NCBI GenBank assembly: GCA_007695095.1
Contig: REEL01000118.1
Coordinates: 1-64,000 of the forward strand
Direction of reading: 5' to 3'
Source: Chitinophagaceae bacterium
GTDB lineage: Bacteria; Bacteroidota; Bacteroidia; Chitinophagales; REEL01
Length of the DNA stretch: 64,000 nt
Numbering within the stretch: position 1 is the stretch's first letter; the number at the start of each line of letters is the position of its first letter. The position numbers were made by a program, and so were the translations under genes. This document shows, piece by piece, positions 1-39,335 of the stretch. Below the pieces are notes generated by a model that saw only the letters and a list, made by a program, of their open reading frames with translations, had not been told where the DNA came from and searched no databases.

Positions 1-200
1 CTGTCTGCAATCTTTAGCGTTTCAGTTTTATGTTTTTTGTCAATTGGGCTTTTAGGTTTCTCAAAAATGTAAAGCCCTAAAAATTCCCTGCGTGTGGGTT
101 CGCCTGTTTCGGGGTGTGGAATAGCCGGGTAAAAATCTAAATACAGGCTTTGCCGTCCTTTGCTTATTTTCTTATGTCTTAATGTTACTTTAACTGCCAT
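1..200 (-). CDS. Tyrosine-type site-specific integrase, N-terminal part (cut by window edge)
   Basis: The reading frame opens with ATG at 200 and runs off the left edge, giving 66 residues that begin MAVKVTLRHKKISKGRQSLY. The ISKG(R)QSLYLDFYP start, a TGEPTRREF stretch, and the lysine-rich K-SPIDKKHKTET segment are typical of the Arm DNA-binding domain that opens bacteroidete tyrosine recombinases. Such enzymes integrate and excise mobile elements by recombining short att sites. The catalytic domain lies outside the window and cannot be judged. The gene follows the HTH gene at 261-815 on the same strand, as expected for an excisionase-integrase pair beside an attachment site. Confidence 0.85.
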   Translation of the reverse strand, partial: MAVKVTLRHKKISKGRQSLYLDFYPAIPHPETGEPTRREFLGLYIFEKPKSPIDKKHKTETLKIAD

Positions 201-260
201 TGTCATTTATAATTTAGTTACTAAAGTTACTTTTGTTACTCTCTGAAACAATCTTATTTT

Positions 261-815
261 TTACGTTAATAGTTTTTCAATAATCGGTTTTGGAACATAG
301 GCGTATTTACCTTTTTTTATTTTAGGTATGCTGTTCCTTTTAATCAATTCGTAAAGTGCTTTTTCTGAAATGCCGTATTCGTTCTGTACTTCAGAAAGAT
401 TTAAACAATCTGAAATTTCATAAAGTACCGGCTTTGGCTTTTTTATGGGTTTAGGCTTTGGCTGTTCCAGTAGTTTCATTAATTCGTTTTTCTTAACCCT
501 TGTCAATCTCTCTGAAAGATTTACTGCTTTTAGAGTGCCATTATTAATTAGCCGGTAAGCTGTTCTTATTGAGCAGCCTATTAAAATTGAAACGTCCTTT
601 ACCGTTAGAATTTCTTTTTCTTTCAATTCTGTAATAGGACGGGTTTTTATTTTGATAGTTTCAGCATTTGACTTTTGTACCTTTTCTGCTCTTATCCGGG
701 CTTTACTCACTAATGTTCCGCAACGCTTAGAACAATACTTTGTAACGGTGGTACGGGCTGTAAATTCCGTTCCGCAATGCTGACAAATACGCTGTATCTT
801 AATATTAGAACTCAT
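261..815 (-). CDS. Zinc-ribbon plus double helix-turn-helix protein, excisionase-like
   Basis: This is a 184-residue protein. Residues 11-32 carry a CxxC...CxxxC zinc-ribbon-like motif (CQHCGTEF then YCSKRC). Residues about 66-115 form a MerR/excisionase-type helix-turn-helix (LTVKDVSILIGCSIRTAYRL). A second, weaker HTH at about 135-184 (LSEVQNEYGISEKALYELI) follows a Pro/Lys-rich linker. In Bacteroidota, proteins of this kind sit next to tyrosine integrases and probably act as recombination directionality factors or regulators. Only about 60 nt separate it from the integrase start. The iterated GGTACAA sites just upstream (891-935) are its most plausible binding sites. The role is inferred from domains and context. 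Confidence 0.75.
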   Translation of the reverse strand: MSSNIKIQRICQHCGTEFTARTTVTKYCSKRCGTLVSKARIRAEKVQKSNAETIKIKTRPITELKEKEILTVKDVSILIGCSIRTAYRLINNGTLKAVNLSERLTRVKKNELMKLLEQPKPKPIKKPKPVLYEISDCLNLSEVQNEYGISEKALYELIKRNSIPKIKKGKYAYVPKPIIEKLLT

Positions 816-890
816 TAAGTAGCTTTAAGTATCATTAGTATAAAATAAGTGTAATTAAGTGCCATAATTTCACCAAAAAATAGCTGATTT

Positions 891-935
891 TTGTACCTCA
901 ACTAATCGGGTACAACAAAGGTACAAATTTGTACC
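891..935. promoter_or_regulatory. Iterated GGTACAA/TTGTACC heptamers, likely protein-binding array
   Basis: Four copies of the heptamer GGTACAA occur in 45 nt: inverted at 891-897, direct at 909-915 and 920-926, and inverted at 929-935. The last two merge into a perfect 16-bp palindrome (920-935). The two direct copies are 11 bp apart, one helical turn. The array lies between the excisionase-like gene and the mnmE end. It could be recombinase arm sites, excisionase sites, or an operator for the HTH gene. Confidence 0.6.
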
Positions 936-981
936 CAATAAACACATATTAATACAAAATAAACAGATAATTAAAAGCAAT

Positions 982-1008
982 AAAAAAAGCCCTTAATTAA
1001 AGGCTTTT
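982..1008 (-). terminator. Intrinsic terminator downstream of mnmE
   Basis: Read on the minus strand, AAAAGCC and GGCTTTT form a 7-bp stem (985-991 with 1002-1008). The stem continues into a run of seven T residues, the classic intrinsic-terminator form. It lies about 45 nt past the mnmE stop and would end the minus-strand mnmE transcript before it enters the mobile-element genes. Confidence 0.65.
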
Positions 1009-1051
1009 AGTAAGTTTATTAATTGTTTGTTCTTTGGTTGTTTTGTAGCGG

Positions 1052-1069
1052 TTACTTTCCAATGCAAAA
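1052..1069 (-). other. Putative attachment site (att) at the 3' end of mnmE
   Basis: The last 18 bases of mnmE (minus strand TTTTGCATTGGAAAGTAA, encoding the invariant CIGK-stop end) abut integrase and excisionase-like genes. The same gene end is the known target of the Salmonella genomic island SGI1 integrase. A second copy at the far end of the element would lie left of the window, so the duplication cannot be confirmed here. Confidence 0.45.
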
Positions 1070-2419
1070 ATTCCTAAAAATATTCTCAAGCAGGTCGTCT
1101 GTTGATACACTGCCGGTTATCTCTCCCAAATTATTGAGGGCGCTTTTAATATCAAAAGCTACTAATTCTCCGGAACGATCCTCAAGCAAACCTTCTATAG
1201 ATGCGTCTATAGCTTCTCCGGCTTTAGCAAGGGCTTCATAATGGCGTACATTGGAAAGTATATGGCTGCCGGCTTCTCTCTTCATCGCAGCGACCTGCTG
1301 ATAGAGATGTTCTTTTAAGGCCTCGACACTTTCTTTTTCAGTTTTTGAAATATATAATACTTCATGACTGACTTTTGGCTTTAATAGCTTGTTATCAGCA
1401 ACTAAATCTTTTTTGCTTCCAACTAAAATCAATGGCGTTTCCGTATTTTTTTTCAACAAACTGATGTCTTTTAAAACATCCTCCTCCGTGGAGGTCGATA
1501 AATCAAAAAGATAAATACAAATGTTTGCCAGTTCTACTTTTTTAAGGGCACGCTCAACTCCCTGCTTTTCGATTTTGTCAGTGGTGTCTCTGATACCTGC
1601 CGTATCCACAAAACGAAACAAAATACCTTTGATATTTATCTGTTCCTCAATCGTGTCGCGGGTAGTTCCGGCAATTTCAGAAACAATTGCTCTTTCTTCC
1701 TGTAAAATGGCATTTAAAAGAGTGGATTTCCCGGCATTAGGCCTGCCGGCAATAACGGTAGCTACTCCATTTTTAATGGCATTCCCATATTCAAAAGAAG
1801 CCATCAGGCTAAGAATAATTTCTTTTATTTCCCTCAATAGCTTCACCAACTGATCCCGGTCGGCAAACTCAACATCTTCCTCACTAAAGTCTAATTCCAA
1901 CTCCAACAAAGAAGCAAACTTTATGAGCTCTTCACGGAGTTGGGTAATTTGATTTGAAAAGTCACCTCTCAGCTGTTGCAATGCAATTTTATGAGAAGCA
2001 CCGGACTGAGAAGCTATCAGGTCAGCAACTGCCTCTGATTGGGCGAGGTCCATTTTGCCATTCATAAAAGCACGAAAAGTAAATTCTCCCGGTTGTGCAA
2101 TTCGAGCCCCTTTTCTGACTATCAGCTCCAATAATCGCTTCATAATGTATGGCGAACCATGACAACTAATTTCTGCAATATCTTCGCCGGTATAAGAGGC
2201 CGGATTTTTAAAAATACTGACTAATACCTCATCTATTATTTCTTTTCCATCTTTTATCAATCCAAATAAAATGCTGTGGCTTTTTGCTTCAGTGGGTTTT
2301 TTTCCGCTAAAAATTTCATCCACTATACGAAAAGTATCTGCTCCCGAAATTCGAATAACTCCTACCGCACCGGTTCCTTCCGGAGTAATTGGTGCTGCTA
2401 TGGTGTCTGTATTGTCCAA
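1052..2419 (-). CDS. mnmE: tRNA modification GTPase MnmE
   Basis: At 455 residues this has the usual length. With MnmG it builds the 5-carboxymethylaminomethyl group on wobble uridine 34 of certain tRNAs. Residues 1-120 are the formyl-tetrahydrofolate-binding domain. A helical domain follows, interrupted by a Ras-like G domain whose P-loop GRPNAGKST is at about 225-233, with DTAG near 272. The C-terminal FCIGK carries the Cys of the family's conserved end. The start MDNTDTIAAPITPEG fits the family. The stop codon borders the mobile-element genes, and the intact CIGK end agrees with an integration that restores the coding sequence. Confidence 0.97.
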   Translation of the reverse strand: MDNTDTIAAPITPEGTGAVGVIRISGADTFRIVDEIFSGKKPTEAKSHSILFGLIKDGKEIIDEVLVSIFKNPASYTGEDIAEISCHGSPYIMKRLLELIVRKGARIAQPGEFTFRAFMNGKMDLAQSEAVADLIASQSGASHKIALQQLRGDFSNQITQLREELIKFASLLELELDFSEEDVEFADRDQLVKLLREIKEIILSLMASFEYGNAIKNGVATVIAGRPNAGKSTLLNAILQEERAIVSEIAGTTRDTIEEQINIKGILFRFVDTAGIRDTTDKIEKQGVERALKKVELANICIYLFDLSTSTEEDVLKDISLLKKNTETPLILVGSKKDLVADNKLLKPKVSHEVLYISKTEKESVEALKEHLYQQVAAMKREAGSHILSNVRHYEALAKAGEAIDASIEGLLEDRSGELVAFDIKSALNNLGEITGSVSTDDLLENIFRNFCIGK

Positions 2420-5320: not shown

Positions 5321-7351
5321 TTATTCTTTAAATTTAATAGCAATGACCAATAAGTCATCCTTCAGATAATTTTCCTGAGCAAAATTTTCAAGATTCTGAT
5401 CAAGCTTTGTTGTTATCTTTTTTGCTTCACTTTTGTCTGAATTTAAAAAAGATTTTTCAATTCTTTCATAGCCAAACTCCTCTCCATTAGCCGGATTATT
5501 GGTTTCCGCAAAACCATCCGTAAACAGTAAAATCACATCACCGGCAGAATAATGCTGTTCGTAAACTTTAAAATAGTTTTTATAGTCATCATTTCGAATA
5601 ATTCCTGCTCCCAAACCCTTTTCATCTAAAAAACGGTTCACCTCAGAAATATTTTCATAATATAATGCCGGACAATGCCCTGCCCGTATGTATTGAAATT
5701 TCTTTTTTGAAGGGTTTATTTTAATTATACTTAAGGTCAAAAACATATTTTTTTGAAAACATATTCCGATTCCTCTGTTTAAATGCAGCATAAACTCTTC
5801 CATTGGCAAATCAAACTGAAGCAGTGACTGAATTATTCCTTTTGCTTCAGCCATATGTATGGCAGCCGGAAGCCCTTTGCCGGTCACATCTCCTATGATT
5901 ATATACAGCTCATTTTTACTGTTTATATGGTAATCATAAAAATCTCCACCTACCTCATTGGCCTGTTTTACTACAGCATGAAAGTCTATATATTTATATT
6001 CCGGTGGCTTTTCAGGTATAAGTGAAATCTGAATTTCCTGTGCGATTTTTAATTCATTTTGCAAAACTTCCCCTTTTAATCGTTCATTCAGTAGTTCTGC
6101 ATTTTCATAAGCTAACTTTGCCTGATTAAAATAGGTATTCATCATTTGAAAACTATACTGATCAAATCTGGTTTTCTCTTCACTTACCAATACAATTTCC
6201 ATAATCATTTTCCCCTCATTTTCAAGCTTGCAATATATCATTGAAGTGTAGGGAATTTTTTCTTTACGAATGGCTGACTGTTGTTGTAAATCAAATATCA
6301 CCCAAGAATCTGTTTGCTTTTTTTTATGATAACCTTCAATAAAAGCACTTAACTTTTCTATTACTGCAAGGTTTACATTACGGGTTATCATTTTCGTATC
6401 ATTATGTCGAAGATATCTAATCCAACCTGCCTTTGCCTTACAAGCTTCAAAAGATGAATTGAATAAAAACCCAAACAAATCATAGGTTTCTTCCTTTTTC
6501 AATACCCGCTCCTGAATTGCAAACAAATTATCTATATCCTTTGCTTTCTTACGTTCACTTTTTTGAATTGGAAAATAAAAAAGCACTGCCAAAAATGAAA
6601 AAATCCCATAAAGACAACCAAAAGTAGCAGTTCCGTATATGAAAAAATTAGGGTGAAAAGCGCTTTCAAGCACAACTAAATCACTACCAACAATATAAAA
6701 ATAAAGAATACCTGCATTTACTATATTTAATGGTATAAAAAGTAAAAAAACCATTTTCATGGCATCATAATCCAGATAGTTCAGCCATTTATAATGAAAG
6801 CTAAAGTATATAGAAGAGCAAACGATTAAAACATAGTAAGTTAAATAAACCGGAAAAGGAAGGCTAAATGGAATAAAAGCCAGAAAAACAGACAGCAAAA
6901 TCAAGCTTAAAAAAAGTCTCCAGTAAATTCTTTTCTCCTCATGATTAATTAAAGCGAGCGTACCAAACATAGAGAGAACATACACCAGATAAATCACCAT
7001 CGAAAAGGTTAGAAAAACACTGATATAGTCTGTATTCATTTCCTGATAGAAAGGAAAGTTTTCCAGTGTTGGCGGCAACTGAAACAGAAGCATCAATATT
7101 AGGCCCCAAACAAGTATATTCTGTAAAAGAGCTTCTAAATTAAAAAAGTGTATTTTTCTGAAATAGTAATTTCCGGTCAGCAAAACACCGGCAAAAAAGA
7201 ACATATTAGCTATGGCCTCCAAAAAACTGTGTCCGTTTCTTCCCAAATCAAAAAATGAAACTATTTCATTCCCATACAGTAACATTCCAATGGAAGCCAC
7301 CAAGCCACATATAAAAATAAATACGTAAATAAAGCCTTTTTGAAACTTCAA
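5321..7351 (-). CDS. Membrane-anchored SpoIIE/RsbU-type PP2C serine phosphatase
   Basis: This is a 676-residue protein. The first about 265 residues contain some eight hydrophobic helices. A linker domain (about 270-430, perhaps GAF-like but not clearly recognisable) follows. The C-terminal about 230 residues form a SpoIIE phosphatase domain with VGGDFYD, GDVTGKGLPAA, FTDGFAE and a final LKDDLLVIAI, which supply the metal-binding Asp residues. It would dephosphorylate the STAS protein encoded just downstream in response to a membrane or cytosolic signal. It is first in the partner-switching operon. Confidence 0.87.
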   Translation of the reverse strand: MKFQKGFIYVFIFICGLVASIGMLLYGNEIVSFFDLGRNGHSFLEAIANMFFFAGVLLTGNYYFRKIHFFNLEALLQNILVWGLILMLLFQLPPTLENFPFYQEMNTDYISVFLTFSMVIYLVYVLSMFGTLALINHEEKRIYWRLFLSLILLSVFLAFIPFSLPFPVYLTYYVLIVCSSIYFSFHYKWLNYLDYDAMKMVFLLFIPLNIVNAGILYFYIVGSDLVVLESAFHPNFFIYGTATFGCLYGIFSFLAVLFYFPIQKSERKKAKDIDNLFAIQERVLKKEETYDLFGFLFNSSFEACKAKAGWIRYLRHNDTKMITRNVNLAVIEKLSAFIEGYHKKKQTDSWVIFDLQQQSAIRKEKIPYTSMIYCKLENEGKMIMEIVLVSEEKTRFDQYSFQMMNTYFNQAKLAYENAELLNERLKGEVLQNELKIAQEIQISLIPEKPPEYKYIDFHAVVKQANEVGGDFYDYHINSKNELYIIIGDVTGKGLPAAIHMAEAKGIIQSLLQFDLPMEEFMLHLNRGIGICFQKNMFLTLSIIKINPSKKKFQYIRAGHCPALYYENISEVNRFLDEKGLGAGIIRNDDYKNYFKVYEQHYSAGDVILLFTDGFAETNNPANGEEFGYERIEKSFLNSDKSEAKKITTKLDQNLENFAQENYLKDDLLVIAIKFKE

Positions 7352-7503
7352 TTTTTTATGTTTTTCTTATAAAGTAGCTAATTTACTATAAATATACGTT
7401 TAATAAAATTTAAAAATTGCCAATTTAAATGCAGTGAAGAATACCATCTCCCTGTTTTATTTTTCTAATAGATGTTAAAGTGCTAAAAATATATTCAATT
7501 CCT

Positions 7504-7511
7504 TAACTTTG
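7504..7511 (+). promoter_or_regulatory. Candidate Bacteroidota -7 element (TAACTTTG) for the glycosyltransferase operon
   Basis: TAACTTTG matches the bacteroidete sigma-A -7 consensus TAnnTTTG and lies about 50 nt before the ATG at 7560. A clear -33 TTG at the right spacing was not found, so this is a motif-based candidate. Confidence 0.45.
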
Positions 7512-7559
7512 CGTTCCGGCACAAATAGCCACAGCAGCTATCTCTAAACATTTGCCAGT

Positions 7560-9539
7560 ATGATAAAGCTTTCCGTAATTATTGTTAACTACAATGTTAA
7601 ATACTTCCTGGAGCAGTTGCTGCACTCTTTGGAGCGGGCTTGTAATGATATTAGTAGTGAAATATTTGTAGTTGACAATGCCTCTTCTGATGAATCGGTT
7701 AAAATGCTGAAATCAAAATTTCCGGATGTTATTTGTATTGAAAATAAAGAAAATCTTGGGTTTTCAAAAGCGAATAATCAGGCGATTCGACTGGCAAAAG
7801 GAGAATATGTATTGCTTTTAAATCCTGATACGGTTGTGTCTGAAGATACCTTCAAAAAAAGCATCGCTTTCATGGATGACCATCCGGATGCCGGTTGTCT
7901 GGGAGTCAAAATGTTGGACGGAAAAGGACGTTACCTGCCGGAATCAAAAAGAGGTTTACCCACTCCATGGGTTTCTTTTTGTAAGCTCTCCGGATTGACG
8001 ACCCTCTTTCCCAAAAGTAAACTTTTTGCAAAATATTATCTGGGACATCTGGATGAAAATAAAAACCATGAAATTGAAGTCCTTGCCGGAGCTTATATGT
8101 TTATGAGAAAAACAGCCTTAGACAAAACAGGCCTGCTGGACGAAGATTTTTTTATGTACGGAGAAGATATTGACTTATCTTATCGCTTTTTGAAAGCAGG
8201 CTTTAAAAACTTCTATTTGGCTGAAACTTCGATTATTCATTATAAAGGAGAAAGCACTAAGAGGGGCAGCCTCAACTATGTAAAAGTCTTTTACCAGGCG
8301 ATGGATATTTATGCAAAAAAACATTTTACCGTTGCCGGAGCCCGTTTCTATCATGCTATTATACGCATTGCCATCTATTTTAAAGCTTTTTTTGAATTAT
8401 CTAAAAGGATAGCCGGAGGCATTTTTCTCCCTCTTTTTGATGCCCTTCTCATATTTTTCGGAATGTTTTTTCTGATAGACTTTTGGTCTAAAAACGTTAA
8501 AGAAGCAGAAGCATACTATCCAAACCTTTATCTGGAAGCTATAATACCGGCTTATATTTTAGTTTGGGTATTATCAATATTCTTTTCCGGGGGATATGAC
8601 AAACCTTTAAAAATATACAAACTCGTCAGAGGAGGAATTATCGGCACCATTATTATTTCAAGCATTTATGCCTTTTTAGACGAATCGCTTCGCTACTCCA
8701 GAGCTCTGATAATTTTAGGCGGCGTATGGACAATTGCGGTTACCGTTTTTTCCCGTATATTTTTTAAAATCATTAGCCATAAGCGCCTGAAAATTGATTT
8801 CAATAATCAGAAAAAAATACTGATAGCCGGAAATTTAAATGAAGGGAAAAGAGTCCTTTCTTTACTTAGTCAGTTTGGTGTGGAAAAGAATTTTTCCGGT
8901 TTTGTAGTACCGGATGAAAACTTAAAAAATGGTGATAATGAGCAAATTGTCGGCTCCTATTCTCAATTAGAAAGCATCAGCGGACTTTTAAATATTGAGG
9001 AAATTATCTTTTGTTCTGCCGATATGCCTTATAACCACATAATTTCCTGGATGGAAAGCATGGGTCAGGAAGTTGACTTTAAAATCGTAAGCCCCGGAAA
9101 TCAGAGTATCGTTGGCAGCAATTCAAAAAATGCCGCCGGAGACCTTTACGCTGTAGATATTAATCTTTCAATTACCCAACCCTCTCAAAAGAGAAACAAA
9201 CGATTGATGGACACTTTTCTGGCCTTGTTTTTATTGGTTTTTTCACCGATAGTTCTGTTATTCCTTAAAGAAAAGTCAGCTCTTTGGAAAAATCTATTTT
9301 TAATCATCGGCGGTAAACTTTCTTTTGTAGGATATATAAAAGAAACAGATTCTACGACAAGCAATTTACCCAATATTAAGTCCGGCGTGTTATCTCCTGC
9401 TGATACTTATCAGGCGCTCAATTTAGATAAGGTCAATATTAAAAGACTCAATCTGCTATATGCAAGAGATTATAAAGTTTATAATGATATAGAAATTATT
9501 AGAAAAGGATTTTCAAAAATAGGAAGGAAAACAGCTTAG
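7560..9539 (+). CDS. GT2 glycosyltransferase fused to a degenerate polyprenyl-phosphate sugar transferase tail
   Basis: This is a 659-residue protein. Residues 3-250 are a GT-A glycosyltransferase of family 2, with SVIIVNYN, VVDNASSD, LLNPDT (the metal-binding Asp) and FFMYGEDIDLSYR. About four membrane helices follow (285-405), then a Rossmann-like segment (ILIAGNLNEGKRVLSLL, about 420-515). The end resembles polyisoprenyl-phosphate hexose-1-phosphate transferases: KRLMDTFLAL...SPI and later GGKLSFVGYIK and LYARDYKVYNDIEII. The catalytic core normally between these parts is missing. It probably acts in cell-surface polysaccharide assembly at the inner membrane. Whether the tail is structural or regulatory is unknown. 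Confidence 0.8.
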   Translation: MIKLSVIIVNYNVKYFLEQLLHSLERACNDISSEIFVVDNASSDESVKMLKSKFPDVICIENKENLGFSKANNQAIRLAKGEYVLLLNPDTVVSEDTFKKSIAFMDDHPDAGCLGVKMLDGKGRYLPESKRGLPTPWVSFCKLSGLTTLFPKSKLFAKYYLGHLDENKNHEIEVLAGAYMFMRKTALDKTGLLDEDFFMYGEDIDLSYRFLKAGFKNFYLAETSIIHYKGESTKRGSLNYVKVFYQAMDIYAKKHFTVAGARFYHAIIRIAIYFKAFFELSKRIAGGIFLPLFDALLIFFGMFFLIDFWSKNVKEAEAYYPNLYLEAIIPAYILVWVLSIFFSGGYDKPLKIYKLVRGGIIGTIIISSIYAFLDESLRYSRALIILGGVWTIAVTVFSRIFFKIISHKRLKIDFNNQKKILIAGNLNEGKRVLSLLSQFGVEKNFSGFVVPDENLKNGDNEQIVGSYSQLESISGLLNIEEIIFCSADMPYNHIISWMESMGQEVDFKIVSPGNQSIVGSNSKNAAGDLYAVDINLSITQPSQKRNKRLMDTFLALFLLVFSPIVLLFLKEKSALWKNLFLIIGGKLSFVGYIKETDSTTSNLPNIKSGVLSPADTYQALNLDKVNIKRLNLLYARDYKVYNDIEIIRKGFSKIGRKTA

Positions 9540-9542
9540 TAA

Positions 9543-10166
9543 ATGATAAAAAATATAATATTTGACTATGGTGAAGTCATAGTAAATGTAGACCCCGATA
9601 AAACAATCAAAGCACTTGAAGCCTTAGCTGATAAAGAGACCCTCACTCAGGGAGTTAGCTTAAACCAAACCTTTTTTCATGAATTTGAAAGAGGGCAGAT
9701 TACAGCAGCAGATTTTCGAAGTAACTTAAAAGCCTTATTAAACTGCAAATCTACAGACGAGGAGTTAGATGATGCCTGGAATGCCATGCTGGAAGATTTG
9801 CCCGAAGAAAACCTTCAAATGCTCACTGATGTTAAAACAAAATACAGAAGCTTTCTTTTAAGCAATACCAATGAATTGCACCTGGCTTCTTTGGAAAAGT
9901 ATTTACTAAAAACGTATAACTTCCCTGACTTAGCCGGTTTTTTAGAAAAAGAATATTACTCTCATTTAATTGGAATGAGAAAGCCTGATATGGAAATTTT
10001 TAACTTTGTGCTTACTGAAAATAAACTATCCGCTGCCGAAACTCTTTTTTTGGATGATAACCCTGCCAATATTGAGGCTGCTAAAAAGCTTGGTATACAT
10101 ACCGAACAGGTAAGCAAAAGCAGGCCTGCCATTTTAATATTGAAAGAAATGAATTTAATTTCTTAG
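9543..10166 (+). CDS. HAD-family hydrolase (HAD-IA, YihX-like)
   Basis: This 207-residue cytosolic protein begins IKNIIFDYGEVIVNVDP, the HAD motif I form seen in YihX-type sugar phosphatases (nucleophile Asp in FDYG). Motif II SNTNE is near 108-112, a Lys lies in the RKPDMEIF segment at about 147-153, and the acidic motif IV FLDDNPANIEAA is near 167-178. These residues support phosphoryl transfer through an aspartyl phosphate. The substrate cannot be told. It starts 3 nt after the glycosyltransferase stop, so the two are very likely co-transcribed. Confidence 0.85.
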   Translation: MIKNIIFDYGEVIVNVDPDKTIKALEALADKETLTQGVSLNQTFFHEFERGQITAADFRSNLKALLNCKSTDEELDDAWNAMLEDLPEENLQMLTDVKTKYRSFLLSNTNELHLASLEKYLLKTYNFPDLAGFLEKEYYSHLIGMRKPDMEIFNFVLTENKLSAAETLFLDDNPANIEAAKKLGIHTEQVSKSRPAILILKEMNLIS

Positions 10167-10193
10167 CCGGGTGGTTTTATAAAAAGCAAAATC

Positions 10194-10718
10194 ATGAATA
10201 AAAAAACACAAAATATCATACTCATCTTGGCATCTGTTGTTTTTCTGATTTATGCCATAGGTTTCGTAATTAGCCCTACCACAGAGGTTGAAATTTCCGG
10301 AGAAGTAGATGCCGGTCACTCTGAAGTTTACGATTTGATTTCTAACCCTTCAACATGGCCAAAATGGAGCCCTATAACTCCTTCTGCCACTTCATTTCGA
10401 ATGAGAAAAGAAGGTCCGGATCAAGGAGTTGGTGCCAAAATAGTCTACTTATATGATCAAAAAGAAGCACTGACAATATCTATTACCGAAACCAGGCAGG
10501 GTTTAATGGTCCGGTATGATATTTCATCTGTTCAGGCTCCTCAGATTTCTACCGGTGAAATTGCACTGGAACCGGTTTCCGGAAAAACCCGAATCGTATG
10601 GACACACGAATCAAACTGGGGTAAAAACCCAATCATGAAACTCATGGGAAAAGTGATGGTGTCTAAACAAAGAAATGACATGCTTAAAAGCCTGGAAAAT
10701 ATGCAAAACGATTTATAA
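10194..10718 (+). CDS. SRPBCC (START-like) protein with N-terminal membrane anchor
   Basis: This 174-residue protein has one N-terminal hydrophobic helix (about 7-25) followed by a START/polyketide-cyclase-like domain with the usual ...AGHSEVYDLISNPSTWPKWSP opening and an ISTGEIALEPVSGKTRIVWTHE central strand pair. Proteins of this superfamily bind lipids or other hydrophobic ligands in a helix-grip pocket. No enzyme activity can be assigned. It follows the HAD gene by 27 nt. Confidence 0.75.
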   Translation: MNKKTQNIILILASVVFLIYAIGFVISPTTEVEISGEVDAGHSEVYDLISNPSTWPKWSPITPSATSFRMRKEGPDQGVGAKIVYLYDQKEALTISITETRQGLMVRYDISSVQAPQISTGEIALEPVSGKTRIVWTHESNWGKNPIMKLMGKVMVSKQRNDMLKSLENMQNDL

Positions 10719-10764
10719 GAGATATTAAAACCACCTGAAGCTCGCCCGAAGATTACATTTATTA

Positions 10765-10796
10765 TTTGAAAATTGCATAAAACAGACTTAACTTTA
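10765..10796 (+). promoter_or_regulatory. Candidate Bacteroidota promoter for the GGGP synthase-rsgA operon
   Basis: TTTG at 10765-10768 and TAACTTTA at 10789-10796 are separated by 20 nt. They match the -33 TTG and -7 TAnnTTTG elements of bacteroidete sigma-A promoters. Transcription would begin about 75 nt before the ATG at 10876. A 16-bp palindrome (10858-10873) sits immediately upstream of the start codon and could affect translation. Confidence 0.5.
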
Positions 10797-10875
10797 CATT
10801 AATTGACAGTGAGTTATCAGGCAAATAATAGCGGTTTTTAAATTAACACTTACTGTTAAAAACAATTGTTTTTTT

Positions 10876-11667
10876 ATGAACAAAACTGTTATGAAAGAAA
10901 ATTTCAAGCTGAAAAATTTTATAAGCAAAAACACACAGAAGCCATTATTGGCTATGCTCATAGACCCTGATAAAGCCTCGCAAAAACACCTCAAACAACT
11001 TGCAGGAAAAATACATGATTTTACTCCTGATATTTTTTTAGTTGGTGGCAGTGTGATGGAGCAATCTCTGTTTGACGAGACAGTTGAAGACTTAAAAAGC
11101 TTGTTTCCCCAAATACCCTTGATTTTATTTCCCGGAAGCCACTATCAGGTTTCTTCAAAAGCTGATGGAATATTAATGCTATCCTTAGTCTCCGGCAGAA
11201 ATTCTGACTATCTAATCGGTCAACAGGTCTTGGCTGCTCCAAAAATTAAAGCCTCCGGCATGGAAGTTTTGCCAACAGCTTATATGCTGATTGACGGTGG
11301 CTCCTTAAGCTCTGCAAATTATATTACCCAAAGTTTGCCCATTCCTGCTGACAAACCCGGAATTGCTGCGGTAACAGCTTTAGCTGCCAAGCAGATGGGA
11401 ATGCAATTTATTTATTTGGATGCCGGCAGCGGAGCACAAAATTCAGTAAGCCCTCAAATGGTAGAAGCTGTAAAAAAAGAAACTGATTTACCGGTTTTTG
11501 TAGGTGGGGGAATCAGAAACATTCATCAAATGAAATCTTTAGTTTCTTCCGGCGCAGATGTTATTGTTATTGGAACTTTGTTTGAAGAAAAGCTTGATGA
11601 AATAAAATCAATGAAAGAATATATACAGAATTTAATCATTTCCGGAAGCCTAAAATCTAAGATTTGA
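10876..11667 (+). CDS. Geranylgeranylglyceryl/heptaprenylglyceryl phosphate synthase (GGGPS/PcrB family)
   Basis: This 263-residue TIM-barrel prenyltransferase joins a polyprenyl diphosphate to glycerol-1-phosphate by an ether bond. Seen motifs are LLAMLIDPDKAS, DIFLVGGSVM, LFPGSHYQVS, IYLDAGSGA, VFVGGGIRN and ADVIVIGT, which form the phosphate- and magnesium-binding sites of the family. The form is that of the bacteroidete group of GGGPS enzymes, related to archaeal ones, for which ether-lipid products in bacteria are poorly understood. It overlaps rsgA by 4 nt. An alternative start is the Met at 10891. Confidence 0.9.
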   Translation: MNKTVMKENFKLKNFISKNTQKPLLAMLIDPDKASQKHLKQLAGKIHDFTPDIFLVGGSVMEQSLFDETVEDLKSLFPQIPLILFPGSHYQVSSKADGILMLSLVSGRNSDYLIGQQVLAAPKIKASGMEVLPTAYMLIDGGSLSSANYITQSLPIPADKPGIAAVTALAAKQMGMQFIYLDAGSGAQNSVSPQMVEAVKKETDLPVFVGGGIRNIHQMKSLVSSGADVIVIGTLFEEKLDEIKSMKEYIQNLIISGSLKSKI

Positions 11668-12587
11668 AAGCTTTAGTTATACGATCTACAGGCAGCTGGT
11701 ACACAGTTATTAGTCATGACAACCAAAAAATTGAATGTAGACTGAAAGGAAAACTGAGATTAAAAGGCTACCATTCTACAAATCCGGTTGTAGTAGGGGA
11801 TATGGTAACTCTTGAAAAAAGCGAATCGGCAGATTATGTAATTAAAGAGGTTTACGACAGGAAAAATCAAATGGTCCGTTTGTCACCGCGTCATAAACAT
11901 ATGAAACATGTCATTGCTGCTAATATTGACATGGCTATTCTACTCGTAACTATCAGCAAGCCAAGAACATCAACCGGTTTTATTGACAGATATCTCGTTG
12001 TAGCGGAAGAATTTTCAGTTCCCGTTACTATTGTCTTTAATAAAATAGATTTATTGAAAGAAAAAGAACATAAAAAGTTAGACGAAATCATTGAAAGATA
12101 TTCAAATTGCGGATATCCTTGCCTGAAAACCTCAGCCGCAAAAAATACCGGCATCGATGAAGTGAAAAAAATCATCAAAGGGAAAATTTGCCTGATTAGC
12201 GGATATTCCGGTGTTGGAAAATCAACTATTATAAATGCTATCTATCCCGAACTCAACATAAAAACGGCTGAAATTTCCAAACAAACCGGAAAGGGAAAAC
12301 ATACAACTACTTATGCTGAAATGCATCAAATGCCTTTTGGCGGATACCTGATAGACACTCCGGGTACTAAAGAATTTGCTTTGCCGGAAATTGATCCGCG
12401 AACTCTGAGTCATCATTTTCCCGAAATGGTGCCCTACCTGCAATATTGTAAATTTAACAATTGTAATCATGTTAACGAACCCGATTGCGCAGTAAAAGAT
12501 GCCGTATCAGACGGGCAAATAGATTTCAACAGATATGAAAGCTACCTAAGCATGTTAAGCGAATTACAACTAAAAAACTTGTATTAA
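11664..12587 (+). CDS. rsgA: Ribosome small-subunit-dependent GTPase A (RsgA)
   Basis: This 307-residue circularly permuted GTPase acts late in 30S subunit maturation. An OB-fold opens the protein. NKID (G4) at about 126-129 comes before the P-loop GYSGVGKST (about 180-188), then DTPGTKEF (G3), the permuted order that defines the family. The C-terminal zinc knuckle has the Cys/His pattern YCKFNNCNH...DC. The start is a TTG whose last bases lie in the upstream TGA stop (TTGA overlap), suggesting translational coupling to the GGGP synthase gene. Confidence 0.96.
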   Translation: MKALVIRSTGSWYTVISHDNQKIECRLKGKLRLKGYHSTNPVVVGDMVTLEKSESADYVIKEVYDRKNQMVRLSPRHKHMKHVIAANIDMAILLVTISKPRTSTGFIDRYLVVAEEFSVPVTIVFNKIDLLKEKEHKKLDEIIERYSNCGYPCLKTSAAKNTGIDEVKKIIKGKICLISGYSGVGKSTIINAIYPELNIKTAEISKQTGKGKHTTTYAEMHQMPFGGYLIDTPGTKEFALPEIDPRTLSHHFPEMVPYLQYCKFNNCNHVNEPDCAVKDAVSDGQIDFNRYESYLSMLSELQLKNLY

Positions 12588-12589
12588 TT

Positions 12590-13042
12590 ATGCGCGTTAT
12601 TCTTCAAAGAGTACAAAAAGCAGCTGTGATTATAAACAAACAGGAGAAAAGAAAAATCAGTAACGGACTTGTGGTCCTGCTGGGAATAGAAGAAGCTGAC
12701 GGGGAAGAAGATATAGACTGGCTGTGTAAAAAGATAGTGAACATGAGAATTTTTGAAGATACTGAAGAAAAAATGAATCTTTCATTAAATGATTGCAATG
12801 GCGATTTATTGTTAGTGAGTCAATTCACCCTTCACGCACTTACAAAAAAAGGGAACCGACCTTCTTTTATAAAATCGGCGAAACCGGAAATTTCCATCCC
12901 GCTCTACGAGTCTTTTTGTAAAAAAATAAAACCTTTGGTAAACGGACATTTTGAAACAGGAGAATTTGGTGCCTATATGGAAGTAAAATTAATTAACGAT
13001 GGCCCGGTAACCATCTTTATGGATAGCAAAAATAAAATCTGA
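12590..13042 (+). CDS. dtd: D-aminoacyl-tRNA deacylase
   Basis: This 150-residue homodimeric enzyme hydrolyses D-amino acids (and glycine) wrongly attached to tRNA. It carries both family motifs: SQFTLHA near 79-85 and the cross-subunit NDGPVTI near 137-143 (the Gly-cisPro pair). It starts MRVILQRV as most family members do. It lies 2 nt after rsgA and overlaps the next gene by one base (TGATG), so it belongs to a tightly packed operon. Confidence 0.96.
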   Translation: MRVILQRVQKAAVIINKQEKRKISNGLVVLLGIEEADGEEDIDWLCKKIVNMRIFEDTEEKMNLSLNDCNGDLLLVSQFTLHALTKKGNRPSFIKSAKPEISIPLYESFCKKIKPLVNGHFETGEFGAYMEVKLINDGPVTIFMDSKNKI

Positions 13043-13368
13043 TGGAATTAAAACAAGCACAGGAAACAGTTGACAACTGGATAAAAAAATATGGCGTTCG
13101 CTATTTTAATGAATTGACAAATATGGCTATTTTATCAGAAGAAGTAGGAGAGCTTGCCAGAATAATAGCCAGAAAATACGGAGAACAATCCTTTAAAAAA
13201 GGGGAAGAAACCGAAAGCATAGATGATGAATTGGCGGATGTTCTTTTTGTTGTAATCTGCCTGGCCAATCAAACAGGAGTTGACTTATCGGCAGCCTTAA
13301 AGAAAAATTTAGAGAAAAAAACAAACAGAGATCAAAACAGACATTCCGAAAATCCTAAACTCAAATAA
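13042..13368 (+). CDS. MazG-like nucleotide pyrophosphohydrolase
   Basis: This 108-residue all-alpha protein has the metal-binding acidic pattern LSEEVGELARIIARK (about 29-43) and DDELADVLFVVICLA (about 62-76), typical of the MazG/all-alpha NTP pyrophosphatase superfamily. These enzymes cleave nucleoside triphosphates to monophosphates, often removing non-standard nucleotides. Its start overlaps the dtd stop by one base and the O-methyltransferase follows after 2 nt. The exact substrate is unknown. Confidence 0.88.
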   Translation: MELKQAQETVDNWIKKYGVRYFNELTNMAILSEEVGELARIIARKYGEQSFKKGEETESIDDELADVLFVVICLANQTGVDLSAALKKNLEKKTNRDQNRHSENPKLK

Positions 13369-13370
13369 CT

Positions 13371-14009
13371 ATGGACTACTTAAATAAAAACTTTCAGGAA
13401 TATGCAGAAAATTATTCCACGGATGAAGACGAACTTTTAAAGAAAATTAATCGGGAAACACATCTGAAAGTTCCTATGCCGAGAATGCTTTCCGGACATT
13501 TGCAGGGTATATTTTTAAAAATGTTCAGCACAGCATTACAACCCAAATGCATACTTGAGATTGGCACCTACACCGGATATTCAGGCATTTGCCTTGCCAA
13601 AGGACTTAGTGAAAATGGCCGGTTAATTACCATAGATATAAATGATGAGCTGGAAAATATGGTAAGAGGCTATTTCAAAGAATCCGGTCTTGAAAGAAAA
13701 ATTGACTATAAGCTGGGAAATGCACTTGATATAATCCCGGAATTGGATATCCAACCGGATCTGGTTTTTATTGATGCAGACAAAAAAAACTATCTGAATT
13801 ACTATAAAATGATTATTGATAAACTCAGACCGGGCGGCTTTATTTTAGTTGACAATGTTTGGTGGAGCGGGAAAGTGCTAAATGAGAAAAAAGATAAAGA
13901 CACTACTGCCATACATGAATTTAATGAGTTTGTACATCACGATAAACGAGTTGAAAACTTTTTACTGCCAATCAGAGACGGTATCATGATTTTAAGAAAA
14001 CTTGCTTAG
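13371..14009 (+). CDS. Class I SAM-dependent O-methyltransferase (COMT-like, family 3)
   Basis: This 212-residue protein contains the SAM-binding motif ILEIGTYTGYSGICLA (about 61-76), an acidic ribose-binding strand LITIDINDE, and the metal-site region VFIDADKKNYLNYY followed by FILVDNVWWSGKV. This matches the cation-dependent catechol/caffeoyl-CoA O-methyltransferase family common in bacteria. The acceptor is unknown. It is the last gene of the run starting at the GGGP synthase. Confidence 0.9.
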   Translation: MDYLNKNFQEYAENYSTDEDELLKKINRETHLKVPMPRMLSGHLQGIFLKMFSTALQPKCILEIGTYTGYSGICLAKGLSENGRLITIDINDELENMVRGYFKESGLERKIDYKLGNALDIIPELDIQPDLVFIDADKKNYLNYYKMIIDKLRPGGFILVDNVWWSGKVLNEKKDKDTTAIHEFNEFVHHDKRVENFLLPIRDGIMILRKLA

Positions 14010-14053
14010 CTATTTTTATTCAAAAACGGTTTTTCTATTAATTTTTTCATTTA

Positions 14054-14085
14054 TTGTTTTTTCAATTATTATAGTTTTAAATTTG
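14054..14085 (+). promoter_or_regulatory. Candidate Bacteroidota promoter for the tolC-like gene
   Basis: TTG at 14054-14056 and TAAATTTG at 14078-14085 are separated by 21 nt, matching bacteroidete -33 and -7 elements. The start codon at 14112 lies 27 nt after the -7 box. Confidence 0.5.
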
Positions 14086-14111
14086 TAGCGTTTAAACTTT
14101 TTCTTTGAAAT

Positions 14112-15596
14112 TTGTTTTTACGTGTATCTAAATTATACAAACTGACGACTTTGCTAAAACACTTATATACTTTTACTTTAAGCTTGTTACTCATTTTACC
14201 GGCGCAATTTGCCAATGCTGAGGATAGTGCTGAGTTATGGGACTTGCAAATGTGTATTGACTATGCCCTGGAAAACAGTGTACAGCTGAAACAACAGGAA
14301 ATCAATTTGCAGTTGCAGGAAGCTGTATTAAGCCAAACTTATGCCGATATATTTCCTTCAATAAATGCAGATTTAAATTCCAGTTTAAACTATGGGCGTA
14401 ATGTAGATCCAACGACATATGAGTTTCGCACCCAAACTATCACGTTGGGCTCTGCGACTTTAAGTTCAAATTTAACCTTATTTAACGGCTTTAGAAAGTG
14501 GAATACCATTCGCCAAAACCGACTAAATCTTTCTTCTGCTGAAGCTGATTTGGCCCAATCTGCTAATGATGTTGCCCTGAATATTTCTTCTGCATATTTA
14601 CAGATTCTGCTAAGTGAATCTCAGGCAAGACTTGCTCAGGAACAACTGGAGGTAATAAGTCAGCAGGTTGAACAAACCCGGAGAATGGTAGAAAGTGGAG
14701 CTCTGGCAGACAATGCTTTAATGGAAATTCAAGCTCAGCAGGCACGGGATGAATTAAACAGTATAGTAGCTGAAAATAATCTGGAGCTGGCCTATCTGAA
14801 TTTGAAAATTTTAATGCAGGCTGATCCGGATAAAGACATCAGGATTTTTCGTCCGGAGCTGGATGTCCCGGACATAAGTGAGATTGAACAAAGAAACCCT
14901 CAGGCAATTTATGCAACAGCACTTCAGCTGCAACCTAAGATTCAAAGTGCTGCATATAAAATCCAAAGTGCAGAAAAAGGCATACAAGTTGCCCGCTCCG
15001 GTAGATACCCCTCTTTAAACTTTTTTGCTGCATTCAGAACAAACTACTCAGATGGAAGAGAGCAATTTACAGACTTTGTCCCTACCGGTGGTATTGATAC
15101 GCTCGGATTTTTATCTTCAGACCTGACTCCAGTCGTAAGGCCGGAAATCGATATCATTTCCGAAAAAATACCTTTTGGCGAACAATTAGATGAAAATTTC
15201 AATTATGCCATAGGCCTCAATTTGACAGTGCCTATATTTAATGGCTGGCAAGTGAAAACAAATATACAAAGAGCAACTTTGGAACACCAATCAGCTCTTT
15301 TGGGCGATACACAGGTCAGAAATCAGTTGAGAAATGACATACAACAAGCCTATGTCTCTGCCAGAGCTGCAGGACTCAGATACCGCTCTTCGGAGGCAAA
15401 CCTTTCAGCTGCTCAAAACGCTTATCGAAACGCAGAACAAAGATTTAACCTTGGGATGTTAAACGCTGTTGATTTTAATACCTCCCGAAACAATCTTCAA
15501 ATAGCAGAAACAGAGCTCCTGAATGCAAAGTTTGAATATATTTTTCAATTGAAGATACTTGACTTTTATGAAGGAAAGCCTTTAGAATTAAATTAA
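14112..15596 (+). CDS. TolC-family outer-membrane efflux protein
   Basis: This 494-residue protein has an N-terminal signal peptide (hydrophobic stretch about 21-36, cleaved near ANA-EDS). It shows two repeats of the outer-membrane efflux protein domain with the usual MCIDYALENSVQLKQQEI start, long alanine/glutamine-rich helices, and an LTLFNGFRKW / LTVPIFNGWQVKT barrel signature in each half. It would form the trimeric outer-membrane channel of a tripartite exporter. The adaptor gene follows after 5 nt, but no inner-membrane pump gene is adjacent. Confidence 0.92.
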   Translation: MFLRVSKLYKLTTLLKHLYTFTLSLLLILPAQFANAEDSAELWDLQMCIDYALENSVQLKQQEINLQLQEAVLSQTYADIFPSINADLNSSLNYGRNVDPTTYEFRTQTITLGSATLSSNLTLFNGFRKWNTIRQNRLNLSSAEADLAQSANDVALNISSAYLQILLSESQARLAQEQLEVISQQVEQTRRMVESGALADNALMEIQAQQARDELNSIVAENNLELAYLNLKILMQADPDKDIRIFRPELDVPDISEIEQRNPQAIYATALQLQPKIQSAAYKIQSAEKGIQVARSGRYPSLNFFAAFRTNYSDGREQFTDFVPTGGIDTLGFLSSDLTPVVRPEIDIISEKIPFGEQLDENFNYAIGLNLTVPIFNGWQVKTNIQRATLEHQSALLGDTQVRNQLRNDIQQAYVSARAAGLRYRSSEANLSAAQNAYRNAEQRFNLGMLNAVDFNTSRNNLQIAETELLNAKFEYIFQLKILDFYEGKPLELN

Positions 15597-15601
15597 TAAT
15601 T

Positions 15602-16873
15602 GTGAACACAAAAAAAGTACTATATTATCTCGCAGGCATAACTTTACTGCTAATTCTGGTAATCTTTTCCGGTAACAGGCTTGGCTTTTTAGGAACTTCT
15701 GCTGCCGTTGAAGTTCAAACCGAAAAAGCGGAAAGAAGAGATATTGCTGAAAGAGTAGCTGCCAGTGGTAAAATATTTCCGGAAACGGAAGTGAAAATTT
15801 CATCAGAAGTATCCGGTGAAATTACCGCTATCTTAATAGCTGAAGGTGACTCTGTGGAGAGAGGACAGCTTTTACTCGAAATCAATCCCGACATTTACAA
15901 GTCAATGCTGGAAAGGGCGGAGGCCACGCTAAATCAAAGCAGGGCAAACTTAGCCTCTTCAAAAGCCAGAAAAATACAAGCAGAAGCTCAGTTTTTAAAT
16001 GCTGAATTGACTTTTAACCGTAGTAAAAAACTTTTTGAAGAAAGAGTTATTTCAGAAAGTGAGTTTGAATCGGCTCAAGTTGCTTATACAACATCCCAAT
16101 CAGAAGTTGACGCAGCAGAGCAAGCTGTTTTAGCCGCGGAGTTTAATATTAAAAGTGCGCAGGCAACGGTCAATGAAGCCCGGGATAATCTTGCCAGAAC
16201 CAGTATACGCTCTCCAATAAACGGTATCGTTTCCAAGCTTTCTGCTGAACCCGGTGAAAGAGTGGTGGGAACAGCCCAAATGCTGGGAACAGAAATTATG
16301 AGGGTGGCTGATTTTGACATTATGGAAGTTCGGGTTGAAGTAAGCGAATCGGACATTTTGAGAGTCGGAGTCGGAGATTCAGCAGATGTAGAGGTAGATG
16401 CATATCTTAATGAAGTTTTCACAGGCGTAGTTACACGCGTTGCACAGTCTTCTGCCGGCAGCGATATGCAGCTAATGACGGATCAGGCTACCAATTTTAT
16501 GGTGTATATCCGATTAGTACCGGAGTCTTACCTTCATGTTATGGACAGAGTTAAAAGTAAATTCCCTTTCAGGCCGGGTATGTCTGCTGCAGTTGAAATC
16601 CGGACAGCAAAAGTACAGGATGTAATTTCGGTTCCGATTCAGTCTGTTACGCTTAGAACTATAGAAAATGATGAAAAAGAAACTGAGGTTGTTTTTGTAT
16701 CAGAAAATAACAAAGCAAAAATCAGAATGGTAAAAACCGGTATACAAGACGACCGGTATATTGAAATTAAAGAAGGACTGAATGAGGGTGAAGTAATAAT
16801 AAGCGGTCCGTTCAGAGCTGTATCCAGAATATTGGAAGAAGGCACAGAAATAGAGCATTCCTCTGAAAAATAA
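15602..16873 (+). CDS. HlyD/MacA-like periplasmic adaptor subunit (membrane fusion protein)
   Basis: This 423-residue protein has one N-terminal transmembrane helix (about 8-24), a biotinyl-lipoyl half-motif near 63-100 (ISSEVSGEITAILIAEGDSV), a long alanine-rich helical hairpin (about 100-190), the second lipoyl half (RTSIRSPINGIVSKL) and beta-barrel domains. It would bridge the TolC-like channel to an inner-membrane pump. The start is GTG at 15602. MacA-type adaptors normally precede a MacB ABC transporter. Here guanylate kinase follows instead, so the pump must be encoded elsewhere. Confidence 0.9.
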   Translation: MNTKKVLYYLAGITLLLILVIFSGNRLGFLGTSAAVEVQTEKAERRDIAERVAASGKIFPETEVKISSEVSGEITAILIAEGDSVERGQLLLEINPDIYKSMLERAEATLNQSRANLASSKARKIQAEAQFLNAELTFNRSKKLFEERVISESEFESAQVAYTTSQSEVDAAEQAVLAAEFNIKSAQATVNEARDNLARTSIRSPINGIVSKLSAEPGERVVGTAQMLGTEIMRVADFDIMEVRVEVSESDILRVGVGDSADVEVDAYLNEVFTGVVTRVAQSSAGSDMQLMTDQATNFMVYIRLVPESYLHVMDRVKSKFPFRPGMSAAVEIRTAKVQDVISVPIQSVTLRTIENDEKETEVVFVSENNKAKIRMVKTGIQDDRYIEIKEGLNEGEVIISGPFRAVSRILEEGTEIEHSSEK

Positions 16874-16903
16874 ACACACAGCTTTAATAAAGAGCAGCAA
16901 ATT

Positions 16904-17479
16904 ATGCAAAAAAAATGTAGAGTTATAGCCGTAACTGCTCCTTCAGGGGCAGGTAAAACAACTATTATTAAATATTTGCTAAACAAGTTTCCGGCTTTGA
17001 CCTTCTCTGTATCAGCAACTACGAGAGCCCCTCGTGAAGGTGAAATAAATGGTAAAGATTATCACTTTCTTCCAAAAGAAGTTTTTTTGGAGAAAATAAA
17101 AAACAATGAGTTTCTGGAATGGGAAGAAGTTTATGAAGGTCTCTTTTACGGTTCTTTAAAAAGTGAGGTTATTAAAAACTGCGACTCCGGAAAAATAACT
17201 CTATTTGATGTGGATGTGCATGGCGCAATGAATATTAAAAGTCATTACGGAGAAGAGGCTTTTGTTCTTTTTGTCAAACCTCCTTCATTGGAAATTCTGA
17301 TAAAAAGACTTACCAACAGGCAAACAGAAGACATATCTTCTATTGAAAAAAGAGTTGCCAGAATGAAATATGAAATGAGTTTTGAAACTAAATTTGACCA
17401 TGATTTGTTAAATGATGAGCTTAAAACTGCGAGAACGGAAGCAGAAAAAATCATATCTGACTTTTTAAAAAAAAGTTGA
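16904..17479 (+). CDS. gmk: Guanylate kinase
   Basis: This 191-residue enzyme phosphorylates GMP to GDP. The P-loop APSGAGKTTI is at about 10-19. The GMP-binding segment SVSATTRAPREGEINGKDYHF starts near 32. FLEWEEVYEGLFYGS and the lid segment with RMKYEM follow. Length and motif order are standard. It follows the adaptor gene by 30 nt on the same strand. Confidence 0.97.
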   Translation: MQKKCRVIAVTAPSGAGKTTIIKYLLNKFPALTFSVSATTRAPREGEINGKDYHFLPKEVFLEKIKNNEFLEWEEVYEGLFYGSLKSEVIKNCDSGKITLFDVDVHGAMNIKSHYGEEAFVLFVKPPSLEILIKRLTNRQTEDISSIEKRVARMKYEMSFETKFDHDLLNDELKTARTEAEKIISDFLKKS

Positions 17480-17513
17480 TGTTTTAACGAAATCGTTGTA
17501 ATTTTATGGTATC

Positions 17514-17900
17514 ATGGTAGTTCAAATTACAGAAGGTATAAAAGTAAGCGTTATCTCTCGCTTTAAAGAAGACTTGTCTAACATTCAGGAAGGCGAGTAT
17601 CTTTTTACATACCATGTAACCATCGAAAACCTTAGCAACTATACCATTAAGCTGTTAAAAAGACACTGGATAATTTTCGATTCAGGTTCCGTTGTAAGAG
17701 AAGTAAAAGGCGAAGGTGTAGTAGGCAGACAACCAATTATAGAACCGGGGCAATCTCACCGTTATGTTTCGGGCTGTAACCTTAATAGTGAAATTGGAAG
17801 CATCAGTGGCCTCTATCTTATGGAAAAATTATCTGACGGGAAACAATTCAACGTAATCGTTCCACAGTTTAAATTAATTTGCCCTTATAAATTAAACTAA
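17514..17900 (+). CDS. apaG: ApaG-domain protein
   Basis: This 128-residue protein folds as a fibronectin-like beta sandwich. It carries the family pattern YLFTYHVTIENLS...LLKRHWIIFDSG and the glycine-rich GEGVVGRQPIIEPGQ loop. ApaG proteins are linked to cobalt/magnesium homeostasis and pyrophosphate binding, but their biochemical role is not settled. A close alternative start lies just upstream of the chosen ATG. The next 218 nt up to rnr hold no gene. Confidence 0.93.
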   Translation: MVVQITEGIKVSVISRFKEDLSNIQEGEYLFTYHVTIENLSNYTIKLLKRHWIIFDSGSVVREVKGEGVVGRQPIIEPGQSHRYVSGCNLNSEIGSISGLYLMEKLSDGKQFNVIVPQFKLICPYKLN

Positions 17901-39113: not shown

Positions 39114-39302
39114 CCGGTTGGTTTTTCAATTTTTGACAATTATTTCACACCCCCCCACAAATAACTATCTACAGTCGACAACTTTCTATGGCAAAGGTTA
39201 ATTTTTATTTTCAAAAATATTAAACAATTTTGTATTGTTTAATCAAATTAGGGAAATATACGGCGTCTGCAATTATCATTATTTGGTGGTTTTTGATAGA
39301 AA

Positions 39303-39320
39303 TTGTACCCTATTTGTACC
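39303..39320. repeat. Phased pair of TTGTACC heptamers
   Basis: TTGTACC occurs at 39303-39309 and 39314-39320, 11 bp apart. This is the same heptamer and spacing as the direct pair at 909-926 near the integrase, in inverse orientation. It lies in the gap 39114-39397, which otherwise shows no gene. Confidence 0.55.
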
Positions 39321-39335
39321 GTTTATTGATAATCT

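Follow-up and report, generated by a model that had tools for sequence, protein, structure and literature searches.

Integrative elements at mnmE and in Bacteroidota

The closest described counterpart of the locus reported here is SGI1, which encodes a tyrosine integrase and an excisionase and carries 18-bp att repeats at the 3′ end of trmE/mnmE. In SGI1, the last 9 bases of attL correspond to attP (PMC9035990), and descriptions of the trmE hot spot come from Gammaproteobacteria (PMC9035990, PMC5704250). Other comparisons come from Bacteroidota. NBU1, NBU2 and Tn4555 use a tyrosine integrase with accessory excision proteins, and NBU1 and NBU2 insert at the 3′ ends of tRNA genes, in contrast to mnmE here, while the NBU/Tn4555 IMEs have their own relaxase, whereas 25 elements delimited here have no PF03432 or PF01076 match (PMC5704250). 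The 10K genomic island of Riemerella anatipestifer, about 10 kb long, also has a tyrosine integrase, and its integration and excision are reported to have been demonstrated; it uses a 53-bp att in an Arg-tRNA gene, unlike the 18-bp mnmE core (PMC6764341). No report of an mnmE- or trmE-targeting element in Bacteroidota was recognized in the literature searched, which covers the journals in part. PICIs have a size and an integrase/regulator/replication gene order similar to those of the family described below. They differ in that a terminase-small-like gene is found in only a minority of our elements and is missing or unrecognized in most. Temperate phages are set apart by large terminase, portal and capsid genes, none of which is among the families listed for our elements.

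Our locus lies at the left edge of the window, the whole 64,000-nucleotide stretch analyzed, which is bases 1–64,000 of contig C118 in a 3.49-Mb genome of 186 contigs. It shares with SGI1 an integrase at the 3′ end of mnmE with the gene end intact, an excisionase-like gene and, in 25 relatives, 18-bp repeats at both ends; as in SGI1, the last 9 bases of attL putatively derive from the element. The delimited elements have a median length of 8.0 kb, compared with 42.4 kb for SGI1 (PMC3285670). None of the SGI1 backbone genes traG, traH, traN and mpsAB is among the families listed for, or the protein clusters of, 26 elements, which have helicase-like and DUF6371-type genes instead. It is this gene content, together with the Bacteroidota labels of 78 of the 80 best integrase relatives, that separates the family from SGI1, and not a comparison of integrases.

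An integrase and an excisionase-like gene beside mnmE

The target gene, mnmE (1052–2419, minus strand), encodes a tRNA modification GTPase and is an intact ORF of 455 codons with the Pfam domains TrmE_N, MnmE_helical and MMR_HSR1. An earlier note on this DNA had described its final 18 bases as intact and as encoding CIGK-stop; they are intact, and their content is corrected to F-C-I-G-K-stop (1069–1052, minus strand). Past the mnmE end lies an intact excisionase-like gene (261–815, minus strand) for a protein of 184 aa, which matches Pfam HTH_17 (E 4e-16), the NCBIfam “excise” domain TIGR01764 above its cut-off and PHROG 66, excisionase. The product also has an N-terminal cysteine motif, assigned by eye, and is described here as a putative zinc-finger/HTH_17 protein. 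The third gene (3–206, minus strand) comprises only the first 68 codons of a tyrosine integrase, with an Arm-DNA-bind_5 match (E 1e-7) and a frame open to the contig edge. Window position 1 is base 1 of contig C118, so that the edge falls inside the integrase and the body of the element lies beyond the contig. Compared over 66 residues with the integrases of delimited elements, this start reaches at most 86% identity (L140). ORF and profile matches thus agree with the earlier proposal of a tyrosine integrase and an excisionase-like gene beside an intact mnmE end, and positions 1–1051 are very probably the mnmE-side (left) end of a small integrative element, in which the DNA between the mnmE stop and the excisionase-like gene appears to be element-type as well.

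The junction lies less than 1.1 kb from a contig end in a 186-contig genome, which raises the question of whether an integrase end was misjoined to mnmE during assembly. Such an artefact is extremely improbable, since the same type of junction is found at 73 of 80 loci with related integrases, including those of genomes G029 and G054.

The attachment core and probable arm sites

The attL core comprises the last 18 bases of mnmE (TTTTGCATTGGAAAGTAA; 1052–1069, minus strand), encoding FCIGK-stop. These 18 bases are repeated at the far end of the elements of 25 relatives, and the core is also found in an attP-like site of metagenomic contigs. Just 3′ of mnmE is a terminator-like, element-type palindrome followed by a T run (982–1008, minus strand), located by a palindrome search and checked by letter. 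Similar stretches are found beside the core on contigs L082, L086 and L087 and in the aligned left arms of many relatives. Further into the element, positions 891–935 hold probable arm-type integrase sites, with TTGTACC at 891–897 and 929–935 and GGTACAA at 909–915 and 920–926. The two motifs occur near both ends in all 25 delimited elements, with a density of 11.1 per kb in the left 300 bp and 5.3 per kb in the right 300 bp, against 0.19 per kb inside.

Evidence on the origin of the core came from its variation. The mnmE-side copy ends in GGAAAGTAA at 55 of 69 attL sites, as compared with 5 of 25 mnmE genes of same-order relatives that lack the integrase and 11 of 25 attR sites; the taxon mix differs between the attL and no-integrase sets, which lessens the weight of this comparison. 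An excess of this ending in attL is as expected if the element brings the 9 bases, and the last 9 bases of the mnmE-side core were probably acquired in this way.

The IMG/VR contigs L082, L086 and L087 carry the module of HTH gene and integrase. Upstream of the HTH gene, each has a copy of the mnmE tail flanked by two different arms, one of them accompanied by the terminator-like palindrome, an arrangement that would make this an attP-like site. Terminal direct repeats of 114 bp in L082 and 127 bp in L087 indicate that these two contigs are circles; L086 has no terminal repeat of 11–400 bases.

Distribution and targets of the integrase family

In a survey of 59 genomes, consisting of the genome itself and 58 of the same order, none of them marked as the same genus or family, 58 of the 59 gave matches, some through paralogues only. 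The order mnmE, HTH gene, integrase was present in two (L066, L071) of the 29 mnmE loci of relatives that were read (L045–L073). Also among these loci are L061, where a related integrase stands by itself (48% identity with the G029 enzyme), and L070, where a recombinase is split. Genome G054 has two full-length mnmE genes, of which the copy on contig C17 carries an element and the copy on C182 is followed by a Fic-like gene.

A broader view was obtained from a scan of 84,980 species genomes in a collection of all bacteria and archaea, from which the best 80 of 120 integrase relatives were taken. These loci are partly non-independent, since L104 and L183 repeat the loci of G029 and G054 and the integrases of L154 and L155 are identical. 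With tblastn, mnmE was directly upstream of the integrase at 71 of 80 loci, and the count rose to 73 after seven of the other nine were read; the two added are L132, where the mnmE tail is at the contig start, and L182, where mnmE is 4.5 kb upstream with extra genes between. The L182 locus (5533–17733) is a 12.2-kb variant in which the extra genes, including one of 584 aa, lie between the mnmE core and the HTH gene. L161 has an attP-like core and no mnmE, and L113 and L174 are too short. Other members of the clade sit elsewhere: L169 (7003–10001) and L170 (3745–6745) are near-identical integrases beside a cas9-like gene and not mnmE, and the integrases of L172 and L178 (before 10001) follow a miaA-like gene and a der-like GTPase gene, respectively (all named by eye). 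The last two are apparent target switches, with miaA-like also a tRNA-modification gene. A quick tree requires 3 changes for the labelled targets and 9 for the mnmE label set against all others, with unknown and viral rows included; one viral integrase (L088) falls inside the clade.

The record titles of 78 of the 80 relatives name Bacteroidota and none names Gammaproteobacteria; the other two are L104, “uncultured bacterium”, and L161, a Theseobacter bin. Clade records are labelled Flavobacteriaceae, Cyclobacteriaceae, Chitinophagaceae and Bacteroidales. Integrases 90–91% identical to that of G029 were found in Flavobacterium, Bacteroidales and Chitinophaga records, two of which are metagenome bins, and this level of identity points to a recent spread between classes. 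Each of the six catalytic positions has the expected residue in 77–79 of the 80 integrases. The first catalytic arginine (Arg I) is replaced by Pro or Ala in a sublineage formed by the integrases of L165, L175, L177, L082 and L087, a replacement that recalls the CTnDOT integrase. The earlier note had envisaged one Bacteroidota element converging on the SGI1 target. Comparison with relatives supports the identity of the target, the 18 bases that end mnmE; the single element gives way to a widespread integrase clade, with 73 of the 80 best relatives at mnmE.

Element boundaries and empty sites

The far boundaries of elements were sought at 69 loci with a readable mnmE end, excluding L134 and L156, where the CIGK stop is not readable. 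Allowing up to 3 mismatches, 26 loci have a second core downstream of the integrase; one of these, L142, whose copy has 3 mismatches and lies at a contig end, was excluded here. The remaining 25 delimited elements measure 3,635–9,453 bp, with a median of 8,040 bp, and a control with the reversed core gave 0 matches. Cyclobacterium roseum SYSU L10180 (locus L137) is a culturable carrier in which both ends were located. Of the other 44 loci, 31 are too short and 13 have at least 9.6 kb and no second copy; the latter may be longer or decayed elements. These data suggest that the element family is small, about 8 kb in relatives, and the second core in 25 of them bears out the idea of insertion at the 3′ end of mnmE, with recombination in its terminal 18 bp.

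Additional evidence came from a search for empty sites, in which the joined flanks of the Mongoliibacter ruber DSM 27929 locus L177 (genome G059) were compared with 98 genomes of its family, including G059; 77 matched. In genome G147, mnmE and the L177 right-flank gene share a strand and are separated by 1.04 kb, an interval without any ORF of integrase size. Judged by its gene order, this appears to be a near-empty site, and it supplies the insert-free relative with which the earlier note had proposed a comparison. In G063 about 32 kb separate the same two flank genes, and close to mnmE there is a further, partial copy of it. This 32-kb stretch has many genes unlike those of the element and is not clearly one insertion.

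In two genomes, mnmE is followed by a second, partial copy of its own C-terminal part, with other genes (named by eye) between the two. In G063 (L208/L209, 1278–2484 read mnmE first), a copy of about 84 codons follows 1.2 kb with a small antitoxin-like ORF. In G011 (L077, 4191–12936), a second copy of 76 codons follows 8.5 kb with helicase-like and restriction-like ORFs. No integrase was seen at either locus.

Core and arm copies elsewhere in the genome

The earlier note had predicted a second 18-bp copy of the mnmE end at the other boundary. The prediction holds in 25 relatives, at a distance of 3.6–9.5 kb; it fails in the genome itself, where the sole other exact core, C100:37–54, is again mnmE-side. 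A degenerate core search of the assembly gave zero-mismatch copies only at C118:1052–1069 and C100:37–54, and the 21 bases around the mnmE stop have exactly one further copy, also on C100. The attR of the window's element was not found in this assembly by the same search. A copy with 3 mismatches at C68:61–81 was rejected as a chance match in a repeat region of an unrelated contig.

Bases 1–128 of C100 are identical to window positions 978–1105, comprising 54 bases of mnmE and 74 past the stop. Beyond base 128 the two sequences part, and C100 continues with a stretch that holds a Fic-like gene, named by eye; at its other end, C100 shares a 55-base overlap with contig C161. C100 was considered as the far boundary and rejected, since its first 128 bases are mnmE and a stretch resembling the left arm of the element. 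It appears instead to be a second mnmE-side junction, with its 74 post-stop bases taken as element DNA because a similar stretch adjoins the core on the family's metagenomic contigs. This junction could stem from a local duplication or from a mixture of strains in which one has lost most of the element.

The window also has a right-arm-like relic without a core, at 39303–39334 on the plus strand (noticed over 39282–39334), which consists of an exact TTGTACCCTATTTGTACC followed by TATTGATAATC. The first sequence was matched exactly in 0 of 100 shuffles, and the second follows it as in the right arms of several relatives. A palindromic repeat cuts the relic off before the core. Its location, close to a uvrA-like gene and 38 kb away from mnmE, would fit either an older insertion or an inversion. 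No convincing tandem matches to element proteins were found among the window genes at 33–39 kb, and a search of the genome with the AAA_25 protein of L082, run without a positive control, gave no match.

This relic, the C100 contig that joins mnmE and an element-type arm straight to other (Fic-like) genes, and an assembly without a further zero-mismatch core are what would be seen if the element were a decayed, immobile remnant in this genome, its body lost or rearranged. Such decay is unlikely, given that the HTH gene is intact, the integrase is open to the contig edge and 25 relatives have delimited elements; moreover, the absence of attR is expected if the adjoining contig was left unassembled or unbinned. 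The unseen body of the window's element is instead inferred to resemble that of its relatives, with helicase-like genes and a length of about 8 kb.

Gene content and mode of transfer

Among 26 delimited elements, L142 included, the integrase is present in all 26, the HTH gene in 25 and a small HTH_17 protein in 24. A helicase-like cluster (cluster 3) is found in 20 of the 26; its L137 member matches DUF3987 and a PHROG DNA helicase, and the L082 counterpart is AAA_25. A DUF6371-type cluster is likewise present in 20, with NCBIfam PG0870 for the L115 member and Pfam DUF6371 for the L082 counterpart. The cargo differs from one element to the next and includes single proteins with matches to a PvuII-like endonuclease, a DNA methylase, HigB and others (family scan, PADLOC). 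Scans of the variable genes covered 85 of 96 ORFs plus one of L082, 86 proteins in all.

The median of 8.0 kb and the order integrase, excisionase, regulator, helicase are consistent with phage satellites of the PICI type, whose circle would replicate by its own helicase/primase and be packaged by a helper phage via an element-encoded small terminase. The contigs are filed in IMG/VR, and capsid, portal and large terminase are absent from the families listed for these 3.6–9.5 kb elements (25 of 87 PHROG and 25 of 46 Pfam families). A terminase-small-subunit-like protein (cluster 9) is present in 5 of 26 elements and in L086, with matches in PHROG and Foldseek. The PHROG matches are weak (L086, E 3e-6; L158, E 4e-3; 4 of the 86 scanned proteins, best 2.6e-4). 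For the L158 model (pLDDT 74), the top viral Foldseek match is a DNA-packaging small subunit (E 8e-5, TM 0.32/0.39); the cluster 8 protein gave a poor model (pLDDT 59). Against packaging by a helper, most elements have no recognized small terminase, the fold match in the PDB, to phBC6A51, is weak (E 0.26), and a PDB sequence search gave nothing useful. In addition, the L086 and L128 proteins matched none of 50,697 phage records and, in IMG/VR, only L086 and L087 themselves, and no helper was identified. The satellite reading is possible but less likely than not. Filamentous phages were also considered, since G029 has a G2P-like replication fragment (E 3e-4, below the cut-off); this reading was dropped, given the helicase-type gene of cluster 3 in 20 of the 26 elements.

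The same fragment bears on another possible but doubtful reading, that these are integrative mobilizable elements that have no canonical relaxase and rely, like SGI1, on conjugation in trans. The target is that of SGI1, and the G2P-like fragment and a Rep_1 protein, one among the 86 scanned, could double as nickases. By coordinates, no MobP/MobV relaxase (PF03432, PF01076) was matched inside 25 elements, the doubtful case L143 being excluded, though 6 of the 25 genomes that carry them do have a PF03432 match above its cut-off at other positions. Moreover, the Bacteroidetes IMEs covered in one review all encode their own relaxase (PMC5704250).

A model for integration and excision

With either mode of transfer, the locus is best explained, with high confidence, by a small integrative element with a target at the mnmE end, a tyrosine integrase and an HTH_17 directionality factor. 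Comparison among the sequences of relatives provides the target, the flanking 18-bp repeats, the clustering of arm motifs, the attP-like contigs with terminal repeats and the near-empty site. From these we infer that the integrase and excisionase are active, that arms are bound and that 9 bases are exchanged. In this model, the tyrosine integrase would join attP, which holds a copy of the last 18 mnmE bases, to the chromosomal mnmE end, binding TTGTACC arm sites on both sides. The crossover would fall inside the 18 bases, so that mnmE would exchange its final 9 bases, its stop codon and its terminator for equivalents from the element, and the protein would stay unchanged. The zinc-finger/HTH_17 protein would act as the directionality factor for excision to a circle.

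Implications

A more far-reaching proposal is that of a phylum-wide Bacteroidota family of about 8-kb phage satellites that attach at the mnmE end, form circles via a helicase/DUF6371-type module, are packaged by a helper and reached the SGI1 target independently. In its entirety this is rather unlikely, and the retrieved loci allow the mode of transfer, as a satellite or by mobilization in trans, to be tested directly. A tool for integration could be built from the compact set of integrase, attP and 18-bp target. The mnmE gene is near-universal, and its last codons are strongly conserved. Given that the same 18 bases are used by elements of two phyla, the end of mnmE stands out as a general docking site.
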